Below, piece after piece: positions 50,020 to 63,568 of a DNA stretch of 64,000 bases; within the stretch, counting starts at the first letter, position 1; each line of letters begins with the position of its first letter. The stretch is from an uncultured Lutibacter sp. (GTDB lineage Bacteria; Bacteroidota; Bacteroidia; Flavobacteriales; Flavobacteriaceae), in the NCBI RefSeq assembly GCF_947493565.1, contig NZ_CANLRG010000001.1, positions 186,001 through 250,000 of the forward strand, written 5' to 3'. The notes under the pieces are model-generated. The model searched no databases. It was not told the DNA's origin and saw only the letters and a list, made by a program, of their open reading frames with translations. Both the position numbers and the translations under genes were made by a program.

Positions 50020-50153
50020 GTTTGCTTCGTTGTGCTCGGAACGTCTTTACGAGGAATTGCAAATGACGAAGTAAACTGTTACTACTGATTGACAGTTTGC
50101 TTCGCTACGCTCGGGTTTGCTTCGCTACGCTCGCAATGACGTTCGCAATGACT
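50020..50153. repeat. Dispersed repeat cluster R1 (TTGCTTCGCT family)
   Basis: A chain of GTTTGCTTCGCTACGCTCGG-type units with one inverted variant unit whose stem arms are TTTAC (50046-50050) and GTAAA (50071-50075). It ends with CGCAATGACGTTCGCAATGAC. It fills most of the 303-base gap between purL and cysQ; a possible promoter and leader follow at 50186. It is the leftmost occurrence of this family in the window. Confidence 0.85.
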
Positions 50154-52537: not shown

Positions 52538-52550
52538 CTTGTGTAAGGGG

Positions 52551-52757
52551 TTGCTTCGCTTCGCTCGGGTTTGCGTCGCTGTGCTCGGGTTTGCTTCGCT
52601 GCGCTCGCAATGACGTGGGGAACGTCTTTACGAGGAGTTGAAAACGACGAAGTAAACTGTTAGTGCCGAGTTAGAGATTGCTTCGCTACGCTCGCAATGA
52701 CGGTTCGCAATGACTGGCAGATTGCTTCGCTTCGCTCGCAATGACGTTCGCAATGAC
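52551..52757. repeat. Dispersed repeat cluster R2 between cysD and cysN
   Basis: Tandem TTGCTTCGCTTCGCTCGGG-type units, an inverted variant with stem arms TTTAC (52627-52631) and GTAAA (52652-52656), then ATTGCTTCGC...CGCAATGACG units. The whole cysD-cysN gap is repeat, leaving about 20 bases of leader before cysN. Confidence 0.88.
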
Positions 52758-54039: not shown

Positions 54040-54131
54040 GATTGCTTCGCTGCGCTCGGGTTTGCTTCGCTGCGTTCGCAATGACGTTCGCAATGACAAG
54101 TGACAGATTGCTTCGCTTCGCTCGCAATGAC
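54040..54131. repeat. Dispersed repeat cluster R3 between cysN and the GIY-YIG gene
   Basis: Contains a canonical unit with stem arms ATTGC (54107-54111) and GCAAT (54124-54128), preceded by tandem units ending CGCAATGACGTTCGCAATGAC. It begins 6 bases after the cysN stop and ends 20 bases before the GIY-YIG start. Confidence 0.88.
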
Positions 54132-54151
54132 TAAATTACTATCTTTAAACT

Positions 54152-54439
54152 ATGAAAAAGGGCTATGTTTACTTAATCACCAATAAAAATAATACGGTAA
54201 TTTATACAGGGGTTACTAGTAATTTACAAAAGCGGATACAACAACATAAAACAAAGTTTTATAAAGGTTTTACTGCAAGATATAATTGTAATAAATTGGT
54301 TTATTTTGAAGTGTTTGATGATATCAAACAAGCAATTTTAAGAGAAAAACAATTGAAGGCTGGGAGTCGTGCTAAAAAAGAACAGTTGATTGCTTTAAAA
54401 AATCCAAGTTGGGAGGATTTATTTGAGGGGGATTGGTAG
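54152..54439 (+). CDS. Single-domain GIY-YIG nuclease (repeat-flanked copy 1)
   Basis: 95 residues forming just one GIY-YIG domain: YVYLITNK (GIY position), VIYTGVTSNLQKRIQQHK (YIG position with the catalytic Arg) and the Glu in LREKQLK. This is the small UPF0213/UvrC-N-like class whose biological role is largely undefined. It lies within R3 and R4 of the TTGCTTCGCT repeat family and interrupts a polysaccharide operon to which it has no obvious functional tie. A related but distinct copy at 63030 is likewise surrounded by repeats of another family. Confidence 0.9.
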   Translation: MKKGYVYLITNKNNTVIYTGVTSNLQKRIQQHKTKFYKGFTARYNCNKLVYFEVFDDIKQAILREKQLKAGSRAKKEQLIALKNPSWEDLFEGDW

Positions 54440-54628
54440 ATTGCTTCGCTGCGCTCGGGTTTGCTTCACTGCGTTCGGGTTTGCTTCACTGCGTTCGGGT
54501 TTGCTTCACTGCGTTCGGGTTTGCTTCGCTTCGCTCGGGTTTGCTTCGCTTCGCTCGGGTTTGCTTCACTGCGTTCGCAATGACTGACAGATTGCTTCGC
54601 TTCGCTCGCAATGACGGTTCGTAATGAC
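54439..54628. repeat. Repeat cluster R4: seven 20-bp tandem units plus a terminal hairpin unit
   Basis: From 54441 to 54580 the sequence is seven in-register 20-bp units (TTGCTTCACTGCGTTCGGGT and variants), then a canonical ATTGC...GCAAT unit and GACGGTTCGTAATGAC. The array begins at the stop of the GIY-YIG gene. It fills more than half of the 354-base gap before the exporter permease. The remaining about 165 bases hold a promoter-like motif at 54659 and no gene. Confidence 0.92.
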
Positions 54629-54658
54629 AAAAAACTACTTCCATTTCCATTAAAAAGT

Positions 54659-54672
54659 CCTATATTTACCAA
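54659..54672 (+). promoter_or_regulatory. Putative promoter motif upstream of the exporter permease
   Basis: CCTATATTTACCAA matches the motif before cysQ (50186-50199) at 13 of 14 positions. It lies 121 bases before the permease ATG, implying a long leader. Confidence 0.3.
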
Positions 54673-54793
54673 CAAAATCAACCAAAATTCAAGCACGTCC
54701 TAAAAAGCTATTATTGAAACATTTGTTAAAAATTACAACAACAAAATAACTGTACATACGTTTCAAAAAGCAGGATAGGAGATTTATTTTTAA

Positions 54794-55639
54794 ATGGCAT
54801 TAGAAACCAAGATATATCAAAAGGAAAATAACACCAATATTGCAAAGCTGTTAAAAGACAGTATTAAAGATATTTACAACTCTCGGTTTTTATCTAAACA
54901 GTTGGCAGTACGTGATATTAAAGCGCAATATCGCCAATCGTTTTTAGGCATTATATGGGCGTTTATTACCCCTTTAACCACCGCTTTTGTTTGGATTTTT
55001 TTAAACCTTACAGGTACTATTCGCTTAACAGATACCGGAATTCCTTATCCAGTATATGCGTTTTCAGGTACTTTGTTATGGTCTATTATTAAAGAAGCGA
55101 TAGATGCTCCTATGAGCAGTACTACAGCAGCCAAGGGGTTGTTATCCAAAATAAACTTTCCTAAAGAAGCCTTATTAGTATCTGGTATTTACAAATTATT
55201 GTTTAACAGTTTGGTAAAAATTATCATATTATTGGTATTTTTAGTGGTGTTTGGTGTGGGATTTCATAGCAGTTTGTTATTATTTCCTTTTGCATTTTTA
55301 GGTGCTATTTTATTTGGAACTACTATAGGTTTATTTATTACCCCTATAGGTATGTTGTATAACGATATTAAAAAAATAATCAGTTTGGGATTGGGCTTTT
55401 TAATGTATGCCACCCCAGTAGTATATGCCATTCCAAAAGAGGGATTGATGAAAACCTTAATGGAACTCAATCCGTTTACCCCCATTATTAGTACCACAAG
55501 AGCGTTTATAGTTGGACAAAGTCCGGAGTATTTAGCGTATTATGGGTGGGTATTGGCGGTTTGTATTCCTTTGTTGGTAGTGGGTTTGCTATTGTATAGA
55601 ATTTCCATTCCTATACTGGTGGAGCGGATGAGTGCTTAA
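54794..55639 (+). CDS. ABC-2 type polysaccharide export permease (Wzm/TagG-like)
   Basis: 281 residues with about six membrane segments. The N-terminal region LAVRDIKAQYRQSFLGIIWAFITPL is the hallmark of Wzm/TagG/KpsM permeases. The C-terminal part has FLMYATPVVYAIPKEG and LNPFTPIISTTRAFI. It forms the inner-membrane channel that moves lipid-linked polysaccharide to the periplasm, driven by the ATPase encoded at 55874. Only repeat DNA separates the two genes. Confidence 0.93.
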   Translation: MALETKIYQKENNTNIAKLLKDSIKDIYNSRFLSKQLAVRDIKAQYRQSFLGIIWAFITPLTTAFVWIFLNLTGTIRLTDTGIPYPVYAFSGTLLWSIIKEAIDAPMSSTTAAKGLLSKINFPKEALLVSGIYKLLFNSLVKIIILLVFLVVFGVGFHSSLLLFPFAFLGAILFGTTIGLFITPIGMLYNDIKKIISLGLGFLMYATPVVYAIPKEGLMKTLMELNPFTPIISTTRAFIVGQSPEYLAYYGWVLAVCIPLLVVGLLLYRISIPILVERMSA

Positions 55640-55641
55640 AA

Positions 55642-55860
55642 AGTCGTCCTTGCGAGGAGTCGCAGACGACGAAGCAAGCTTTTGCTGTGGAGTAACAGAT
55701 TGCTTCGCTTCGCTCGGGTTTGCTTCACTGCGTTCGCAATGACGGCTCGCAATGACGTATGGAACGTCTTTACGAGGAGGGTACGACGAAGTAAACTGTT
55801 GAGATTGCTTCACTGCGTTCGGGTTTGCTTCGCGTTGCTCGCAATGACGTTCGCAATGAC
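55642..55860. repeat. Dispersed repeat cluster R5 between permease and ATPase genes
   Basis: Includes two inverted units with different stem arms: CTTGC (55649-55653) / GCAAG (55674-55678) and TTTAC (55769-55773) / GTAAA (55791-55795). Forward ATTGC/GCAAT-type and tandem TTTGCTTCACTGCGTTCG units are also present. It starts 3 bases after the permease stop and ends 13 bases before the ATPase start. Confidence 0.9.
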
Positions 55861-55873
55861 TAAAATAAAAAGT

Positions 55874-57082
55874 ATGAAAGAAAACGAGGTATTGGTAAAA
55901 GTAGAACACCTGTCTAAAAAGTTTTGTAAAGACCTTAAAACCAGCTTATGGTATGGGGTAAAAGACTTGTATAGCAATGTGTTGGGCAATACGCAGCCTC
56001 GAAACCTGCGTCCTAAAGAGTTTTGGGCGGTAAAAGATATTAATTTTGAGCTGCGCCGAGGTGAGTGTTTAGGACTGATAGGGCACAATGGCGCTGGAAA
56101 AAGTACCTTATTAAAAATATTAAACGGACTCATTAACCCCGATGAAGGTAAAGTAACTATCAAAGGGCGTGTAGGGGCTTTAATAGAGCTAGGTGCTGGT
56201 TTTAACCCTATACTGTCTGGGAGAGAAAATATTTACAACAATGGTGCTATTTTAGGTTTTACCCGTAAAGAAATTGATACCAAAGTAGAAGCTATTATAG
56301 ACTTTGCCGAAATACGCGAGTTTATTGATATGCCGGTACAAAATTACAGCAGCGGTATGAAAGTGCGCTTGGGCTTTGCCGTTGCCGCACAACTAGAACC
56401 TGATGTATTGTTAATTGATGAAGTATTGGCTGTGGGAGATTTAGGGTTTGTACTTAAATGCTATAAAACTATTGATAAAATATTGCCCCGTACTGCTATT
56501 ATTTTTGTAAGCCACAGTATGCCTATGGTATCACGTATTTGTAATCAAATAATATTATTAGATAATGGCACAACTAAATTTCAAGATAAAGATGTAAGTA
56601 AAGCTATAGATTTATACTATACGCGTTTTGTTCAAAATGAAAGTAATCTTTTATTTACAGATGAAACTTTAGAATTAAATGAGGTAAAATTATTAGACTG
56701 TAATAAAAATAGTGATAACCTTTATCAATTAAATTGGTTAGATGATTTAAAAATATATTTTAGATTTAAATTAAAAAAGTCAATTAAAAATATTCCAATT
56801 TTTGCTATTGTAATTTTAGATAAAGAACAAAGACCTGCGGCTTATTTAGATTTAAACAATGACTTTTCTAATTTAGAAATTAAAAATAACTTTATTGAAT
56901 TTGTAGTAAAACACAATAAAGTTCAATTTTCAAAAGGGGTATATTCTGTTGATATAGTTGTAAAAAGGGAAAAAACCAAGAATGTATATTTGAGACAAAA
57001 TAATATTCTATCATTTCAAATAAAACATGATTTAGATATTTTCCCTCCGTTTTTATTAACTTCTGATTTTCAAAAAGTTTAA
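55874..57082 (+). CDS. ABC polysaccharide exporter ATPase (Wzt-like)
   Basis: 402 residues from the ATG at 55874 (MKENEVLVKVEHLSKKF). The frame extends upstream only through repeat sequence, so I exclude that part. Walker A GHNGAGKST, signature YSSGMKVRLGFA, Walker B LLIDEVLAVGD and the H-loop SHS. The roughly 150-residue C-terminal extension (after LDNGTTKFQDKDVSKA) matches the Wzt class, in which it is a beta-sandwich that recognises the non-reducing end of the glycan. This suggests the chain carries a terminal cap that the exporter reads. Starting near 56570 the sequence becomes more AT-rich. Confidence 0.93.
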   Translation: MKENEVLVKVEHLSKKFCKDLKTSLWYGVKDLYSNVLGNTQPRNLRPKEFWAVKDINFELRRGECLGLIGHNGAGKSTLLKILNGLINPDEGKVTIKGRVGALIELGAGFNPILSGRENIYNNGAILGFTRKEIDTKVEAIIDFAEIREFIDMPVQNYSSGMKVRLGFAVAAQLEPDVLLIDEVLAVGDLGFVLKCYKTIDKILPRTAIIFVSHSMPMVSRICNQIILLDNGTTKFQDKDVSKAIDLYYTRFVQNESNLLFTDETLELNEVKLLDCNKNSDNLYQLNWLDDLKIYFRFKLKKSIKNIPIFAIVILDKEQRPAAYLDLNNDFSNLEIKNNFIEFVVKHNKVQFSKGVYSVDIVVKREKTKNVYLRQNNILSFQIKHDLDIFPPFLLTSDFQKV

Positions 57083-57089
57083 TCCAAAC

Positions 57090-57926
57090 ATGTATAATTA
57101 TTTTAAATTTATGCTCAAAAAATCAAAAAAATTCATAAAAAAGATTTTTTTTAAGGATGTTATTGTTGCACAACAAAACACTAATGATAAAATGTTTCCT
57201 GTTGATTTAATTCCGATAACTGATACCAGAGATGAAGATGTTTTTGTAGTTGGTTTTCCAAAATCTGGCAATACTTTAATGCAACACATAATAACGCACT
57301 TAGTTTATGGCATAAATAAAGAAGGTAGTAGAAGTATGGTTAATTTTATTGTTCCAGATATATATACAAATACACATTATTTTAGATTTAATGATGTTTG
57401 TTTCTTTAAATCTCATAACTTACCTGAAAAACGTTATAAAAAAGTTATTTATATTATGAGAGACGGCAGGGAAGCTTTATTATCTTATTATCATATGATG
57501 AAAAATATGGGAAAAGAAGTTTCTTTGGAAGACTTGTATATGGGTAAAGTAGATATTTTTGGGGGCACTTGGCAAAAACATATTTTAAGTTGGGAAAAAA
57601 ATCCATTTAATGCTGATATTTTATGGATTAAGTTTGAAGATTTGAAAAACAATAAATTAAAAGAATTAAAACGCATTTGTAATTTTTTAAATATTACTAG
57701 AACAGATATTGAATTGAATGAAGTAGTAAAATTAACATCAATAGGACATATGAAAGAATTGGAAAAAAGGGAGGACTGGACAAGTATGAAAAAGGGAAAA
57801 TTCTTAGATGGTATGAATTTTATAAGAAAAGGCAATTTAGATACTTTCAAAAAAGAAGTTCCAGATGATTTAATAAATATATTTGAAATTTCAAATTCTA
57901 TAAGTTTAAAAAAATATTATAAATAA
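57090..57926 (+). CDS. PAPS-dependent sulfotransferase 1
   Basis: 278 residues. The 5'-phosphosulfate loop is FPKSGNT (residues 56-62), after a beta strand VFVVG. The 3'-phosphate motif is MRDGREALLSYY (about 123-134), and GTW followed by HILSWEK supports the Sulfotransfer_1 fold. The N-terminal 20 residues are Lys-rich with no signal or membrane helix, so the enzyme is cytoplasmic. It would transfer sulfate from PAPS to a sugar hydroxyl of the repeat unit before export. Followed after 10 bases by a second, dissimilar sulfotransferase. Confidence 0.85.
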   Translation: MYNYFKFMLKKSKKFIKKIFFKDVIVAQQNTNDKMFPVDLIPITDTRDEDVFVVGFPKSGNTLMQHIITHLVYGINKEGSRSMVNFIVPDIYTNTHYFRFNDVCFFKSHNLPEKRYKKVIYIMRDGREALLSYYHMMKNMGKEVSLEDLYMGKVDIFGGTWQKHILSWEKNPFNADILWIKFEDLKNNKLKELKRICNFLNITRTDIELNEVVKLTSIGHMKELEKREDWTSMKKGKFLDGMNFIRKGNLDTFKKEVPDDLINIFEISNSISLKKYYK

Positions 57927-57936
57927 GATAAAATTA

Positions 57937-58785
57937 ATGACTTACTTTTATTTCGGAATTCATAAAGCGGCATCAACTTGGTTAATTCAAATTTTGTATG
58001 ATTTATCTGATTTACTGAATATAAATCATAAACATTATCATAGTGCAAAAATGTTTAATCACAATATTGAAAATGAAATTGCAATAAATAATTTAGATTT
58101 CTTTTCTTATACAAATGCTGAATATAATTCTGTTAAAAAATTGAATAGGTCATTTAAGGGGTTTCACGTTATTCGTGACCCTAGAGATATTGTTGTTTCA
58201 TCTTATTTTTCGCATCTAAAAACACATTCTGATTATATGTGGCCAGAATTAAATGAATACAGGGCTGAGCTAAAATCATTAAATTTTGAGGAGGGAATAC
58301 AAGCAACTATGAGACATTTAGATGATATGATGATTGACGGCGAGCCTGTTAAGATTTTTGATAGTCTTAATAATTGGAATTATGATAATGAAAATATATT
58401 TGAAACTCGTTTTGAGGACCTAACGAAAAATCCATACATTTTTTTACCTAAAATATTTATTTTTTTAGGATTATTAGATAAAAGAAGTACTTTACCACAT
58501 ACTTTAACTAAAAAAGAGATTTTAAATGAGTTAATTTTCAATATTAATAGTAATAAAAAAAGAGATTTAAATTTTGGGTTATTAATGAGTTTAATTTATA
58601 AGCACGATTTTTACTTTAAAACAAAAGGAAGGTTTAAAGGCGAATTAAATGAAAATAGTCACTATAGAAAAGGAGAAGTTGGAGATTGGCAAAATTATTT
58701 TACAAAAAAGAATATAAATTATTTTAAAGATAATTACGGAGAATTATTAATTAAACTAGGTTATGAAAATAATAACAATTGGTAA
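57937..58785 (+). CDS. PAPS-dependent sulfotransferase 2
   Basis: 282 residues. The PAPS-binding loop is HKAASTW (9-14 region), and the 3'-phosphate motif is VIRDPRDIVVSSYFSH (about 78-93). The C-terminus has FKGELNENSHYRKGEVGDWQNYF, matching the common RKGxxGDWKxxF element of the fold that contacts the 3'-phosphate. Sequence differs strongly from the neighbouring sulfotransferase, so two hydroxyl positions or two sugars are likely sulfated. Cytoplasmic; AT-rich gene. Confidence 0.87.
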   Translation: MTYFYFGIHKAASTWLIQILYDLSDLLNINHKHYHSAKMFNHNIENEIAINNLDFFSYTNAEYNSVKKLNRSFKGFHVIRDPRDIVVSSYFSHLKTHSDYMWPELNEYRAELKSLNFEEGIQATMRHLDDMMIDGEPVKIFDSLNNWNYDNENIFETRFEDLTKNPYIFLPKIFIFLGLLDKRSTLPHTLTKKEILNELIFNINSNKKRDLNFGLLMSLIYKHDFYFKTKGRFKGELNENSHYRKGEVGDWQNYFTKKNINYFKDNYGELLIKLGYENNNNW

Positions 58786-58814
58786 TTTAATTTTGAAAAA
58801 TTAATTTAAATTAA

Positions 58815-59708
58815 ATGAAAATATTAATAATTGGTTCAAAAGGTTTTATTGGCAGTCATTGTGTAGATTATTTTAAATCTAAAAATAATGATGTTTGGCA
58901 AGCAGATATCAACAAATCAAATGACAAAAATTATTACCAAATTACCTCTCATAATTCTGATTTTTCTATAATATTTAAAGAAAATAAATTTGATTATTGC
59001 ATCAACGCTTCAGGTTCAGCCAACGTTGGCTTTTCATTTAAAAACCCATCAAAAGATTTTGAGCTTAATGTAGTAAATGTTCAAAAAATATTAGTTGCAA
59101 TTCGCGATTTTAATAATAGTTGTAAATTTATAAATTTTTCAAGTGCTGCAGTTTACGGTAATCCTCAGGTTTTACCCATTACAGAGGATAGCCCTTGTAA
59201 ACCTTTTTCACCTTATGGATTTCACAAATTACAAAGCGAATTATTACTAAAAGAATATTATAAGTTTTTTGGATTGAATACTTGCAGTTTGCGTGTTTTT
59301 TCAGCTTATGGTCCTAGATTAAAAAAACAACTGTTTTGGGATTTATATGAAAAATCAAAAAAAAATAATAATGTTTACCTCTACGGCACTGGAAATGAGA
59401 CAAGAGATTTTATTTATATTGATGATTTATTACAAATAATTGATTTAGTAATCCAGCACGCAAAGTTTCAAGGTTCAACTTATAATGTAGCTAATAATAT
59501 TGAAATTACAATTTCAAATGCGGCACAAATTTTTATAAATGAATTTTATCCCAGTAAAAAATTACTATTTAATGGAGAAACTAAATTGGGAGACCCAAAT
59601 AATTGGTTAGCGGATATATCAAAATTGAAAGCGATTGGATATAAGCAAAATATTAGTATTGAACAAGGATTAAAGAAATATGTAGCATGGTTAAGAGAAA
59701 ACGAATAG
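58815..59708 (+). CDS. NAD-dependent sugar epimerase/dehydratase (SDR)
   Basis: 297 residues. The Rossmann loop is GSKGFIGSH (7-15) and the catalytic Tyr134-x3-Lys138 is in SPYGFHKLQSE, with Ser upstream in NFSSAAVYG and the DFIYIDDLL strand. It modifies a nucleotide sugar (epimerase, dehydratase or reductase); the exact reaction is not evident. It overlaps the following glycosyltransferase by 22 bases. AT-rich. Confidence 0.88.
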   Translation: MKILIIGSKGFIGSHCVDYFKSKNNDVWQADINKSNDKNYYQITSHNSDFSIIFKENKFDYCINASGSANVGFSFKNPSKDFELNVVNVQKILVAIRDFNNSCKFINFSSAAVYGNPQVLPITEDSPCKPFSPYGFHKLQSELLLKEYYKFFGLNTCSLRVFSAYGPRLKKQLFWDLYEKSKKNNNVYLYGTGNETRDFIYIDDLLQIIDLVIQHAKFQGSTYNVANNIEITISNAAQIFINEFYPSKKLLFNGETKLGDPNNWLADISKLKAIGYKQNISIEQGLKKYVAWLRENE

Positions 59709-60838
59709 GCTTAATTTTTTCATATAATGAGAATTGGATTGGCGGCACATATTATTTTTTAAACCTAATTCATGCATTAAACTTATTACAAGATAAAAAT
59801 AAACCAATAGTTAGTATTATTACAAACGATATTAGAGATTATAACTATTTAAAAAATGAAACAAATTATAAATATTTGCATTGTTATAATACTTATAAAC
59901 GTATTTCTCTTTTTAAAAGAATAGTAAATAAAGTACTAAAAAGTATAGGATATCCTTCTTTTTTTGAGACAAATAGTGAATTAAAAAAGTTGGATATGGT
60001 TTATAAGTACTACGCTGAAGAGTTTTTTATAGATTTTGAGAATTGTGTTTATTGGATTCCAGACTTTCAGGAAAAATATTTACCTCAATACTTTAAAAAG
60101 GAAGAAATTGATTCTCGTCAAAAATATTATGAATCAATTGCATCAAATAAAAAGTTTGTTTGCTTTAGCAGTAAAACATCTTTAAATCACTTTGAACTTT
60201 TATTCCCTAATTCAAATATTAAGAAATATGTAATTCAATTTGCGGTTACTCATCCAAATTATAAAAAATTAAATGATAAAAAAGTACTCAAAAAATACGA
60301 GATAAATGGTGATTTTTATTTTTCACCTAATCAGTTCTGGGAACATAAAAATCATATAGTAGTTTTAAAAGCAATTAAAATTTTAAAAAATAAAGGAATT
60401 AATATTCTAGTGGTATTTTCTGGGAAAGAAAATGATTATAGAAATAAAGACTATGTAATTAATTTGAAAAAATATATTCAAGAAAATCAATTAGAAAATT
60501 ATGTCAAATTCTTAGGATTTATACCTCGAGAAGATCAGTTACTAATTATGAAAAATGCTAAGGCTGTTATACAGCCTTCATATTTTGAAGGATGGAGTAC
60601 AGTTGTTGAAGATGTTAAAGCAGTTAATAATTTTATTTTATTGTCTAATATAGAGGTTCATCGAGAGCAGATGAATTCTAACTGTGATTTTTTTGAACCA
60701 AATAATGAAAATCAATTAGCTTTATTAATGGAAAAGTATATTATTTCAAGTCCAGAAATAAAAAAGATTGACTACAATATCAATAGGAAAAAGTTTTCTC
60801 AGGATTTTGTTGAACTAATAAATGAAGTCACAAGTTAA
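59687..60838 (+). CDS. Glycosyltransferase, GT-B fold (GT1/GT4-like)
   Basis: 383 residues. N-terminal Rossmann-like domain (RIGLIFSYNENWIGGTYYFLNLI). The C-terminal nucleotide-sugar domain contains NQFWEHKNHIVVLKAI, VKFLGFIPREDQLLIMKNAKAVIQPSYFEGWSTVVEDVKA, where the E-x7-E-type motif is partly replaced by FEGWSTVVED. Retaining transferase adding a sugar to the repeat unit at the inner membrane. The start at 59687 overlaps the epimerase stop; the stop overlaps the next frame. Confidence 0.87.
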   Translation: MVKRKRIGLIFSYNENWIGGTYYFLNLIHALNLLQDKNKPIVSIITNDIRDYNYLKNETNYKYLHCYNTYKRISLFKRIVNKVLKSIGYPSFFETNSELKKLDMVYKYYAEEFFIDFENCVYWIPDFQEKYLPQYFKKEEIDSRQKYYESIASNKKFVCFSSKTSLNHFELLFPNSNIKKYVIQFAVTHPNYKKLNDKKVLKKYEINGDFYFSPNQFWEHKNHIVVLKAIKILKNKGINILVVFSGKENDYRNKDYVINLKKYIQENQLENYVKFLGFIPREDQLLIMKNAKAVIQPSYFEGWSTVVEDVKAVNNFILLSNIEVHREQMNSNCDFFEPNNENQLALLMEKYIISSPEIKKIDYNINRKKFSQDFVELINEVTS

Positions 60839-60851
60839 TATTTTGTTCATT

Positions 60852-61664
60852 ATGAATCATAATCCTTTAATATCCATAGTCATACCGACCTACAATTCCG
60901 CCAAAACCATAACTCAAACATTAGAAAGTATATTATTTCAAACATATGTAAATATTGAAGTTATAGTTGTTGATAGTTTGTCTAGTGATGCCACTTGTGA
61001 ACTAGTTAACGAGTTTAAATTAACACATTCAAATATTATTTTAATTTCAGAAAAAGATAAGGGAGTATATGATGCTATGAATAAGGGAATTAAATTGGCA
61101 AAAGGTGATTTTTTATATTTTATGGGTAGTGATGATGTATTTTATAATAAAAATACTTTAGCTAATATTTTTGTTGTAGATAATATAAAATATGACGTAA
61201 TCTACGGAAATGTAGAATTTAAATTCAGTAAGAAAATTTATTCTGGTGAGTCAAGTTTAGTAAAACTTATTAATCAACAGATAAGTATTTGTCATCAAGC
61301 AATATTTTATAGTAAAAAAACCTTTAAACTTGTTGGAAATTACAATCTAAAATATTTTATACATGCTGATTATGATTTTAATATTAGGTGTTTCCAAAAT
61401 AGAGAATTAAAAATTAAATATATTGAAATAATTGTAGCAATTTTTAATGAAACTGGTTTAAGCGGGACAAAATCTAATGCTGACGGTTTTCATACAGAAT
61501 TAACAATATTTAATGAAGCACATAAATATAATATAATAGAGTTATATGCTGAAAATCAAAAGTTAAAAAAGACCTTAAAAAGAGTTACAAGTTCTAAACC
61601 ATATAGACTTGGCACTTTTATTTTAAAGCCACTAAAAAAAATAAAAAAAATACTATTTAAATAA
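60852..61664 (+). CDS. Family 2 glycosyltransferase (GT-A)
   Basis: 270 residues from the ATG at 60852 (MNHNPLISIVIPTYNSAKT). An upstream ATG at 60822 overlaps the previous gene and adds 10 residues. GT2 motifs: IPTYNSAKTI, VVDSLSSDAT, EKDKGVYDAMNKGI and the acceptor-side DDVFYN, with HADYDFNIRCF further on. Inverting transferase, cytoplasmic face. The C-terminal segment is basic (LKPLKKIKKILFK) and could touch the membrane. Ends the most AT-rich part of the locus. Confidence 0.88.
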   Translation: MNHNPLISIVIPTYNSAKTITQTLESILFQTYVNIEVIVVDSLSSDATCELVNEFKLTHSNIILISEKDKGVYDAMNKGIKLAKGDFLYFMGSDDVFYNKNTLANIFVVDNIKYDVIYGNVEFKFSKKIYSGESSLVKLINQQISICHQAIFYSKKTFKLVGNYNLKYFIHADYDFNIRCFQNRELKIKYIEIIVAIFNETGLSGTKSNADGFHTELTIFNEAHKYNIIELYAENQKLKKTLKRVTSSKPYRLGTFILKPLKKIKKILFK

Positions 61665-61687
61665 TAATTTAATAGTTTTATAAAATT

Positions 61688-62800
61688 ATGAAAACAGCAC
61701 TAATAACAGGTATTACCGGACAAGATGGGGCGTATTTAGCCGAATTTTTACTGCAAAAGGGCTATACCGTGCATGGTATTAAACGCAGAAGCTCTTTGTT
61801 TAATACAGAGCGTATAGACCATTTATACAAAGACCCACACGAGAAAGACGTTAAATTTAAACTGCATTTTGGCGATTTAACCGATGCCTTAAATTTAACA
61901 CGTATCATACAAGAAGTACAACCCAATGAAATTTACAATTTAGGCGCAATGTCGCACGTAAAAGTAAGTTTTGATACCCCAGAATATACTGCCAATGTAG
62001 ATGGGTTAGGAACCTTACGTATTTTAGAAGCCGTGCGCTTATTGGGTTTAACACATAAAACCAAAATATACCAGGCATCAACTTCAGAATTGTACGGTTT
62101 AATACAAGAAATGCCGCAAACAGAAAAAACACCATTTTATCCACGTTCACCTTACGCAGTAGCTAAAATGTATGCGTATTGGATTACGGTAAATTATAGA
62201 GAAGCCTATAATATGTATGCATGCAATGGTATTTTGTTCAATCATGAATCTCCTTTAAGAGGAGAAACTTTTGTAACTCGAAAAATTACGAGAGCTGCAA
62301 GCAGAATTGCTCTAGGTTTACAAGACACCGTATATTTAGGAAATTTAAATGCTAAAAGAGATTGGGGGCATGCCAAAGATTATGTTGAAGCCATGTGGTT
62401 AATGTTACAGCAAGATAAACCTGAAGATTATGTAATAGCAACGGGAGTTACAACTTCGGTTCGAGATTTTGTAAAACTAGCGTTTGCTGAAGTAGGAATT
62501 GAACTTGTTTTTGAAGGAAAAAATGAACAAGAAATTGGTAAAGTAGCTCAATGTACACATCCCAATTTTCAATTGCCAAAAGGAAAAGAAGTGGTAAAAA
62601 TTGATCCACGTTATTTTAGGCCAACAGAAGTTGATTTGTTAATTGGAGATGCTACCAAATGCAAGCAACAATTAAACTGGCAACCAAAATACAATTTACA
62701 AGGTTTGGTAAAAGAAATGATGGAATACGATGTAAAGCTATTTAAAAAAGATAAGTTTTTACAAAAAGGAGGATTTGATACGTTAAACACGTTTGAGTAG
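61688..62800 (+). CDS. gmd: GDP-mannose 4,6-dehydratase
   Basis: 370 residues, the normal length. NADP loop [33 protein letters not shown], catalytic STSELYG and YAVAK (Tyr/Lys), [19 protein letters not shown] and [15 protein letters not shown]. It converts GDP-D-mannose to GDP-4-keto-6-deoxymannose, the first step to GDP-L-fucose; the next enzyme, fcl, begins at 63569. Its base composition is less AT-rich than the preceding five genes. Confidence 0.97.
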
Positions 62801-62834
62801 TTTATATTAAACCTGAATACAGTTTCTTCAAATC

Positions 62835-62933
62835 GTCACTTCGAGTGATTTTCGAAGAAAATTGTATCGAGAAGAAATGAGAGTACAACCAGTTCTCGAT
62901 ACACCTTCGCTTTGCTTCGGCACTCGAACTGAC
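62835..62933. repeat. Second repeat family, head-to-head pair R6
   Basis: Outer arms GTCACTTCGAGTG (62835-62847) and CACTCGAACTGAC (62921-62933) pair with one mismatch. Inner arms TGTATCGAGAA (62863-62873) and TTCTCGATACA (62893-62903) pair perfectly. The two halves are inverted copies of one about 42-bp unit. Confidence 0.9.
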
Positions 62934-63029
62934 GCGTAATAGTAATTCAAAATCAAAGAGTTATCGAAATTTTAGGTGTGCTTCCGTAGTTAAATTGAAA
63001 ACAAAAATTGAAATGCAAAAATAATAGCT

Positions 63030-63317
63030 ATGAAAAAAAGTTACCTATACATTTTAAAATGTAAAGACAACACCTTTTATACCGGCGTTACTTCAAGTTT
63101 GGAAAAGCGAATGTTTGAGCATAATTCCGGTCTTCATACAAACAGTTATACATATAAACGAAGACCATTAGAATTGGTTTTTTATGCTGAATTTACAGAT
63201 ATCAGTATTGCTATAAATAAGGAAAAGCAAATTAAGAAGTGGTCAAAATCAAAAAAAGAAGCTTTAATTAATGGTGAATATGACAGTTTAATTAATTTAG
63301 CGAAGAAAAAGTTCTGA
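63030..63317 (+). CDS. Single-domain GIY-YIG nuclease (repeat-flanked copy 2)
   Basis: 95 residues, one GIY-YIG domain: YLYILKCK, TFYTGVTSSLEKRMFEHN (YIG with catalytic Arg) and INKEKQIKKWSKSKKEAL with the catalytic Glu. It is clearly homologous to, but well diverged from, the copy at 54152. It is enclosed by R6 on the left and R7/R8 on the right, a repeat family different from that around copy 1, and it separates gmd from fcl, which are normally adjacent. The role is unknown. Confidence 0.9.
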   Translation: MKKSYLYILKCKDNTFYTGVTSSLEKRMFEHNSGLHTNSYTYKRRPLELVFYAEFTDISIAINKEKQIKKWSKSKKEALINGEYDSLINLAKKKF

Positions 63318-63339
63318 TTTAAAAATTTTTCGTTGCTGG

Positions 63340-63380
63340 TTCTCGATACACCTTCGCTTTGCTTCGGCACTCGAACTGAC
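63340..63380. repeat. Second repeat family, single half-unit R7
   Basis: TTCTCGATACACC...GGCACTCGAACTGAC, identical over most of its length to the right half of R6, and followed by the same CGCGTAATGGTAAT-type tail (R6: CGCGTAATAGTAAT). It starts 23 bases after the GIY-YIG stop. Confidence 0.9.
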
Positions 63381-63424
63381 GCGTAATGGTAATAAAAAAA
63401 GCCTGCCCCGAGTTACATCGAGGG

Positions 63425-63523
63425 GTCACTTCGAGTGATTTTTGAAAAAAATTGTATCGAGAAGAAATGAGCGTAAAATCAGTTCTCGATACACCTTCGC
63501 GTTGCTTCGGCACTCGAACTGAC
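63425..63523. repeat. Second repeat family, head-to-head pair R8
   Basis: Same plan and almost the same sequence as R6: outer arms GTCACTTCGAGTG (63425-63437) and CACTCGAACTGAC (63511-63523), with inner arms TGTATCGAGAA and TTCTCGATACA. It ends 45 bases before the fcl start. Confidence 0.9.
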
Positions 63524-63568
63524 GTTATAACTTAAAAAAAGAACAACACAACACAAAAAACAAAAAAT

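Follow-up and report, generated by a model that had tools for sequence, protein, structure and literature searches.

The stretch of DNA described here (the window; 64,000 nucleotides, G000:C1:186001-250000 in our coordinates) comes from the 3.1-Mb genome of an uncultured Lutibacter sp., and in a polysaccharide region it carries two small genes, copy 1 and copy 2, for stand-alone proteins of the GIY-YIG nuclease type. Both genes are intact, and both products score over the Pfam cut-off for PF01541 (E-values of 6.2e-19 for copy 1 and 2.9e-16 for copy 2), with 44% identity to each other over 81 residues; no NCBIfam family scored above its cut-off for either protein. The columns of Y7, Y18, R28, H32 and E65 are invariant in all 24 of the aligned proteins, and the Y, Y, R and E residues have catalytic roles in GIY-YIG enzymes. 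The closest solved structures by sequence are GIY-YIG proteins of UPF0213, matched by copy 2 at E-values of 2.5e-11 (PDB 1zg2) and 3.7e-11 (1ywl) and by copy 1 at 9.4e-7 (1zg2). Both predicted proteins are placed in the GIY-YIG nuclease superfamily. The initial annotation of this DNA had called them its only two stand-alone GIY-YIG genes, and this holds genome-wide: the other two of the four PF01541 matches belong to frames of 609 and 465 amino acids (aa), probably UvrC and a fusion of the DnaQ type. No GIY-YIG pseudogene copy was found in 120 kb of this contig.

Each gene is bracketed by its own family of repeats, family A at copy 1 and family B at copy 2, as initially described. The spacing reported for copy 1 was borne out as well: family A stops at 54131, 20 nt before the start of the gene, and restarts at 54438, inside the stop codon. 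Read from its tag, family A runs CGTCATTGCGAGCG..., with the reverse complement CGTCATTGCGAG...GCAAT. Copy 2 is enclosed by family B as stated; that family had been described as unrelated to the other, but although the arms differ, both carry the tag GTCA, and the two families are therefore not wholly unrelated.

We ran the comparison of protein clade with repeat family that had been suggested for these genes, and found that the two match far beyond chance. As copy-1 relatives we took the best 29 matches listed from a sample of 395 genomes of the phylum, and as copy-2 relatives the best 29 listed from 299 genomes of the family, with the window's own locus excluded each time; repeats were counted on either or both sides of the gene, upstream and downstream taken together. 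Family A was present at least twice at 25 of the 29 copy-1 relatives and family B at none, whereas family B was present at least twice at all 29 copy-2 relatives and family A at three. Shuffled loci gave 1/29 for A and 3/29 for B in both sets. A further set of named copy-1 relatives (the best 80 of 387, found with a single window protein) had family A within 300 nt in 78 cases and at least twice in 75, compared with five cases of at least two family B repeats. The repeats generally stand on both sides within 200 nt of the gene: family B did so at 29/29 copy-2 relatives and family A at 65/80 named copy-1 relatives, against 42/669 for distant 200-nt bins. Two records labelled Alphaproteobacteria (L308) and Methylomirabilis (L312) also have family A on both sides of the gene, but as metagenome bins they call for caution about the phylum named.

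To rule out that one repeat is simply everywhere in a genome, we compared the flanks of each gene with those of its nearest protein in another genome and with those of that genome's other GIY-YIG genes, scoring shared 9-mers. The enlarged sample comprised 149 genes, of which four duplicates were removed and 79 of the remaining 145 were testable; the nearest protein shared more 9-mers in 66 of these 79, fewer in eight and as many in five, and after loci with shared neighbour genes were set aside the result was 52 of 62, with seven fewer and three tied. Among pairs at least 60% identical and without a shared neighbour, 91% of 766 shared at least six 9-mers, compared with 9.2% of 5432 dissimilar pairs. 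Because 58 of the loci had been picked as relatives of copy 1 or copy 2, we repeated the analysis without them. In this unpicked sample of 93 genes the nearest protein shared more in 64 of 78 (nine fewer, five tied), or in 50 of 62 without shared neighbours (nine fewer, three tied), and 86/101 pairs at least 60% identical and without a shared neighbour had at least six 9-mers in common, against 222/2681 dissimilar pairs. The pairing thus survives both the paralog control and the loss of synteny, which indicates that the gene reaches unrelated surroundings in company with its repeat. The evidence for the pairing and for its specificity is strong.

The features of the window are collected in Table 1. 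With at most one mismatch, the family A core occurs 27 times in the 3.1 Mb (17 exact), always within C1:236097-274123, and a reversed control pattern does not occur at all; a two-arm pattern places seven of seven genome-wide matches within C1:181226-274098. The family B core gives three good matches and one poor one, all within C1:248893-267696, with none for its control. Looser patterns applied to the surrounding 120 kb find 29 tag ends of family A, at C1:179681-281182, and 16 of family B. The two genes had been said to lie in the only repeat-rich part of the window; that repeat-rich stretch begins before 54040, as the family A units at the cysQ-like frame and between the cysD-like and cysN-like genes make clear (a further set lies between the ABC permease and ATPase genes).

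Table 1. Genes, repeats and gmd-fcl interval in the window (positions counted from its first base)
Feature	Position	Strand	Details
Family A repeats	50095..50152	-	start of cysQ-like frame
Family A repeats	52547..52757	-	between cysD-like and cysN-like genes
Family A repeats	54041..54131	-	upstream of copy 1; tagged form GTCATTGCGAG...GAAGCAATCT on minus strand
Copy 1, stand-alone GIY-YIG nuclease gene	54152..54439	+	95 aa; Pfam match; core Y/Y/R/H/E residues present
Family A repeats	54438..54628	-	downstream of copy 1; includes 20-nt tandem array of 6.8 copies
Family A repeats	55695..55861	-	between ABC permease and ATPase genes
gmd-fcl interval	62801..63568	.	768 nt; gmd 61688-62800, fcl from 63569
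Family B element	62835..62934	.	upstream of copy 2; 100 nt, full palindromic pair GTCACTTCGAGTG...CACTCGAACTGAC
Copy 2, stand-alone GIY-YIG nuclease gene	63030..63317	+	95 aa; Pfam match; core Y/Y/R/H/E residues present
Family B half element	63340..63381	-	just downstream of copy 2
Family B element	63425..63524	.	second full palindromic pair

The 29 family A tag ends are oriented unevenly, 28 of them on one strand, opposite to the transcription of the operon; in other genomes the strands range from equal use (201/199 in G061, 20/22 in G255) to skewed (1/8 in G392). Arrays of both families lie to the right of the window. A tandem family A array with a period of 31-32 nt (C1:273919-274161, L033), 33 kb from copy 1, reaches from where one glycosyltransferase-like frame ends to where the next begins, and a family B array of six consecutive copies with a 102-nt period (C1:250564-251159, L032) stands just past the window's right end. 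The 20 kb adjoining the repeat region are low in G+C (0.26-0.28).

The two families differ in how well they fold. With DNA parameters, a single family A unit forms a weak hairpin, no better than its shuffles (z of +0.7), and the half units of family B reach z of -0.6 and -1.5, while the full family B element folds strongly (-3.8). The ends of family B are constant (GTCA, TTCGAGTG and TATCGAGA), whereas its middle varies from locus to locus and yet remains self-complementary: in one element from each of 28 of 30 loci, the window included, the stem middle scored a mean of 6.9 against 4.3 for swapped halves (0/2000 permutations). This covariation supports a hairpin in family B, and fixed ends together with a covarying middle support recognition at the base of the folded hairpin.

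We also examined small GIY-YIG genes more broadly, in a sample of 60 genomes from 59 genera of the family, all of which have PF01541 matches. Eighty stretches were chosen from among the small GIY-YIG places listed; L068, L077 and L107 were left out for want of an intact small GIY-YIG frame, and the other 77 were counted with the window (78 in all), with one gene ranked per stretch. Within 150 nt of the gene, repeated 14-mers of any family made up 35% of the intergenic bases; the share was 31% at 150-300 nt and fell to 11% at 1-2 kb and 4.4% at 4-8 kb. The small GIY-YIG gene had 28 or more repeated bases within 300 nt in 55/78 stretches, and it outranked every other gene of its own stretch in 48/78, where 7.2 were expected. 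Repeats are thus denser at small GIY-YIG genes than at other genes of these stretches, the comparison being with genes in general and not with small ones alone. Neither this comparison nor that of clade with repeat family gave the result named beforehand as speaking against the initial proposal. When the small genes of the sampled stretches were split by their score to the window proteins into a window-like group I (66 genes) and the remaining group II (25 genes), perfect-stem hairpins with a GTCA tag occurred at 1.53 per kb within 150 nt of group I genes and at 0.05 per kb at 2-8 kb; six other tags gave 0 to 0.56 per kb within the same 150 nt.

The group II genes (74-132 aa) have a neighbourhood of their own. 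Eleven of the 25 lie within 100 nt of a tRNA, compared with 12 of 982 other open reading frames in these stretches and one of the 66 group I genes; examples in or beside tRNA genes stand near locus position 8000 in L051, L053, L069, L079, L080, L100, L110, L112 and L113. Several are accompanied by a duplicated piece of the tRNA, and in L112 the combination of partial tRNA and gene occurs three times in tandem. This lineage looks like a tiny tRNA-targeting element. Some small GIY-YIG genes were also seen at contig ends (for example G018:C4, G027:C12, G042:C8, G038:C40 and G012:C10), a position to be expected if they are seated in repeats that break assemblies.

Comparison of insertion sites bears on whether gene and repeats move. 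In the sister species (G047, whose gmd is 85% identical), 6 nt separate gmd from fcl. Among 29 other gmd loci, the best matches listed, the gap is -8 to 95 nt in 28, G047 included, and in the 29th it contains an apparent acyltransferase gene. Both copies had been said to split genes that normally adjoin; this is correct for copy 2, but at the site of copy 1 cysN does not adjoin the ABC permease in the two close orthologous loci read, and no clean empty site was found. Genome G133 has a gene-bearing unit of 420 nt at two places 6.45 kb apart, 99% identical, whose right edge falls at the TGACAGA of a hairpin. On Sphingobium megaplasmids a single intergenic site takes three forms in the 11 records that include both flanks: a CGTCACCCCGGG hairpin, the gene and an inverted hairpin in seven (two of them read, L259 and L364); a lone CGTCACCCCGGG...CCCGGGGTGACG element in two, one of them slightly decayed; and neither gene nor hairpin in two. 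The four gene-less two-piece records were all read (L360-L363). Such a set of states is expected of a mobile unit that exists both with the gene and as repeats only. Similar gaps were seen at Sinorhizobium and Shinella sites; the Sinorhizobium site was considered as a gene-less allele and rejected, since the gene is present there too, with fewer repeats. That gene and flanking repeats are a mobile unit is well supported.

Repeat and gene also co-occur across genomes. Of the 395 genomes, 35 hold at least five family A copies, and a copy-1 match (E of at most 1e-14) is found in 33 of them, against 124 of the 360 others (odds ratio 31, p of 1.7e-12); the two that lack such a match are G061 and G259. 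Because the genomes are related by descent and not independent, this p-value is only a guide.

These repeats resemble a class already described. In the main text of the survey of CGTC-tagged repetitive extragenic palindromic (REP) sequences by Di Nocera in 2013 (PMC3733652), the repeats are presented as lacking associated transposase genes, their arms open with AT, dRS3 of Neisseria is listed among them, and the term GIY-YIG does not appear. Family A, with its tag beside a short stem opening with AT, reads as a CGTC-tagged REP in this sense (PMC3733652), sharing both the CGTC/GTCA tag and the AT; family B meets the tag alone and opens with AG or AC after it. The survey found no dedicated transposase (PMC3733652). 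In the present analysis, repeats of this kind flank GIY-YIG genes. The association extends beyond Bacteroidota to records of Neisseria, Shinella, Sphingobium, Sinorhizobium and Aeromonas. A gonococcal homolog, 46% identical to copy 1 over 94% of its length, has units of the dRS3 type CGTCATTCCCGCGCAGGCGGGAATC on both sides; a Bacteroidota protein (of G133) with the same repeat core is 60% identical to this homolog; and the Shinella, Sphingobium, Sinorhizobium and Aeromonas homologs each stand by CGTC units of their own.

A biochemical counterpart reportedly exists. A study of Ssn (Nature Communications, 2025) is said to describe site-specific GIY-YIG nucleases acting on single-stranded DNA, with the NTS repeat of Neisseria meningitidis, and to identify these proteins as nucleases that cut the repeats beside their genes in single-stranded form. 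We take the gonococcal homolog to be an Ssn ortholog, and copies 1 and 2 presumably are new members of the Ssn nuclease family. As reported for Ssn, the Lutibacter proteins are small, stand-alone GIY-YIG proteins whose genes are flanked by a cognate GTCA-tagged hairpin repeat; the repeat families differ. A literature search for GIY-YIG together with dRS3 or with repetitive extragenic palindromic found no paper, its coverage of subscription journals being poor.

The layout also recalls RAYT genes with their REP and REPIN repeats, as partly described in PMC3733652: one gene with its own hairpin family, paired inverted units, and gene-bearing beside repeat-only copies. RAYT is a tyrosine enzyme of the HUH type, however, whereas the Lutibacter proteins are GIY-YIG proteins in a genome without a Y1_Tnp match. 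Five matches in phage records to the G133 protein were 34-36% identical and gave no sign of these phages being main carriers. On plasmid p1 of Planktothrix agardhii (L255), a copy-1 homolog flanked by GTCATTCTGAG and GTCATCCTGAA repeats lies between an MmeI-type restriction gene and the DISARM gene drmA. Sequences like copy 2 (48-53% identical) were also found inside frames of 417-874 aa (G088:C1:322553, G588:C1:653005, G628:C1:1832749, G476:C26:12543 and G054:C4:563253), which we read as probable fusions or in-frame insertions into other genes.

We consider it probable that nuclease gene and cognate hairpins form a small mobile module, similar to RAYT and REP with a different enzyme fold. Each gene would encode a stand-alone GIY-YIG nuclease with a GTCA-tagged hairpin of its own as target, recognised at the hairpin's constant base, and gene and flanking repeats together would be a module that landed twice in this polysaccharide region. 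The protein would bind and cut its own repeat, most likely in single-stranded form as is said of Ssn, and repair or recombination at the cut could then copy the unit into new sites and expand the repeats nearby. Recognition of its own repeat by each protein is what the pairing most naturally suggests, and a REP element plus a nuclease, GIY-YIG in place of HUH, serves as the working likeness.

Several observations weigh against a module of this kind. Genome G061, a single contig, lacks a stand-alone GIY-YIG gene yet holds 400 copies of family A, and the only two PF01541 matches there fall in frames of 609 and 460 aa; G259 has five family A copies and no copy-1 match, with PF01541 in frames of 199-600 aa. 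The gene is thus not needed for the repeats to persist, nor perhaps for them to multiply. The initial annotation had proposed that the GIY-YIG proteins recognise or mobilise the repeats: mobility of gene and repeats as a unit is supported, mobilisation of repeats in trans is no more than a possibility in view of G061, and recognition is suggested by the pairing. Fewer than two family A copies were counted at 4/29 copy-1 relatives and 5/80 named ones, 19/78 stretches are without any repeated 14-mer adjoining the tested gene, and a perfect 7-bp GTCA hairpin lies within 300 nt of only 16/66 group I genes (six for the best control tag). The Sphingobium alleles would look no different had a unit lost its gene by deletion. 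The permease-ATPase gap, which carries family A in the window, is occupied in L341 (G696) and L342 (G688) by other repeats with the GTCA tag, with no GIY-YIG gene in these 3.8-kb loci; we read this gap as a favoured landing site for GTCA-tagged repeats. Finally, the repeats of the Lutibacter genome cluster in one region beside the low-G+C 20 kb, so that a shared import could account for their local confinement.

The alternative that survives best, though we think it unlikely, is that the nuclease is a host factor which cuts repeats in incoming or exposed single-stranded DNA and so tunes natural transformation and recombination, as Ssn reportedly does in Neisseria, the repeats spreading by other means. 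The gonococcal homolog between its dRS3-type repeats, with the 60% identical Bacteroidota protein beside the same core, is in keeping with such a role, as are the repeats that G061 keeps without the gene. PMC10745880 presents dRS3 and similar repeats as hot spots for recombination. The unit is nevertheless found at unrelated sites and is absent from orthologous ones, and some genomes, such as G044 in several stretches, hold several different pairs, which a single host function does not explain.

We give far less weight to hitchhiking, in which gene and repeats were imported together with the polysaccharide locus and have no functional link. The single chromosome region that holds both cores, with its low-G+C neighbour, would suit it, yet it is contradicted by the non-syntenic comparison: the pairing holds across unrelated neighbourhoods and against paralogs of the same genome, and relatives of A and B retain their own families across genera. 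A link at the RNA level, with repeats acting in transcripts as terminators or mRNA ends, appears about as improbable. The one-sided orientation of family A tag ends in this contig and the good single-strand fold of the full family B element (under DNA parameters) are the points for it; family A lies on both strands in G061 and G255, though G392 is skewed, and its single unit folds no better than shuffles. Least credible of all is mobilisation of the repeats by a RAYT or other HUH transposase with the GIY-YIG gene merely sitting among them. REP-RAYT pairs are a known precedent (in the main text of PMC3733652), but CGTC repeats are not associated with transposase genes there, and Y1_Tnp (PF01797) has no match in this genome or in G649, G061 and G397, while four of the eight genomes searched have one.

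Beyond these two genes, a wider possibility, which we put forward tentatively and somewhat doubt, is that the whole class of CGTC-tagged REPs represents the non-autonomous version of a mobile element which, when autonomous, carries the gene for a GIY-YIG single-strand nuclease. This would be a second, independent invention of the REP/REPtron lifestyle, and the nuclease the partner that the 2013 survey could not find.

The analysis connects small GIY-YIG genes of a common class with bacterial repeats of a class that is likewise common. Similar pairs at unrelated places in other bacteria suggest small mobile units made of an enzyme and its target, and if the mobile reading is true it explains how CGTC REPs spread. 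The pairing names the repeat that each protein should read and supplies many natural pairs for the study of specificity; those with different hairpins would be a ready set of sequence-specific single-strand nucleases.

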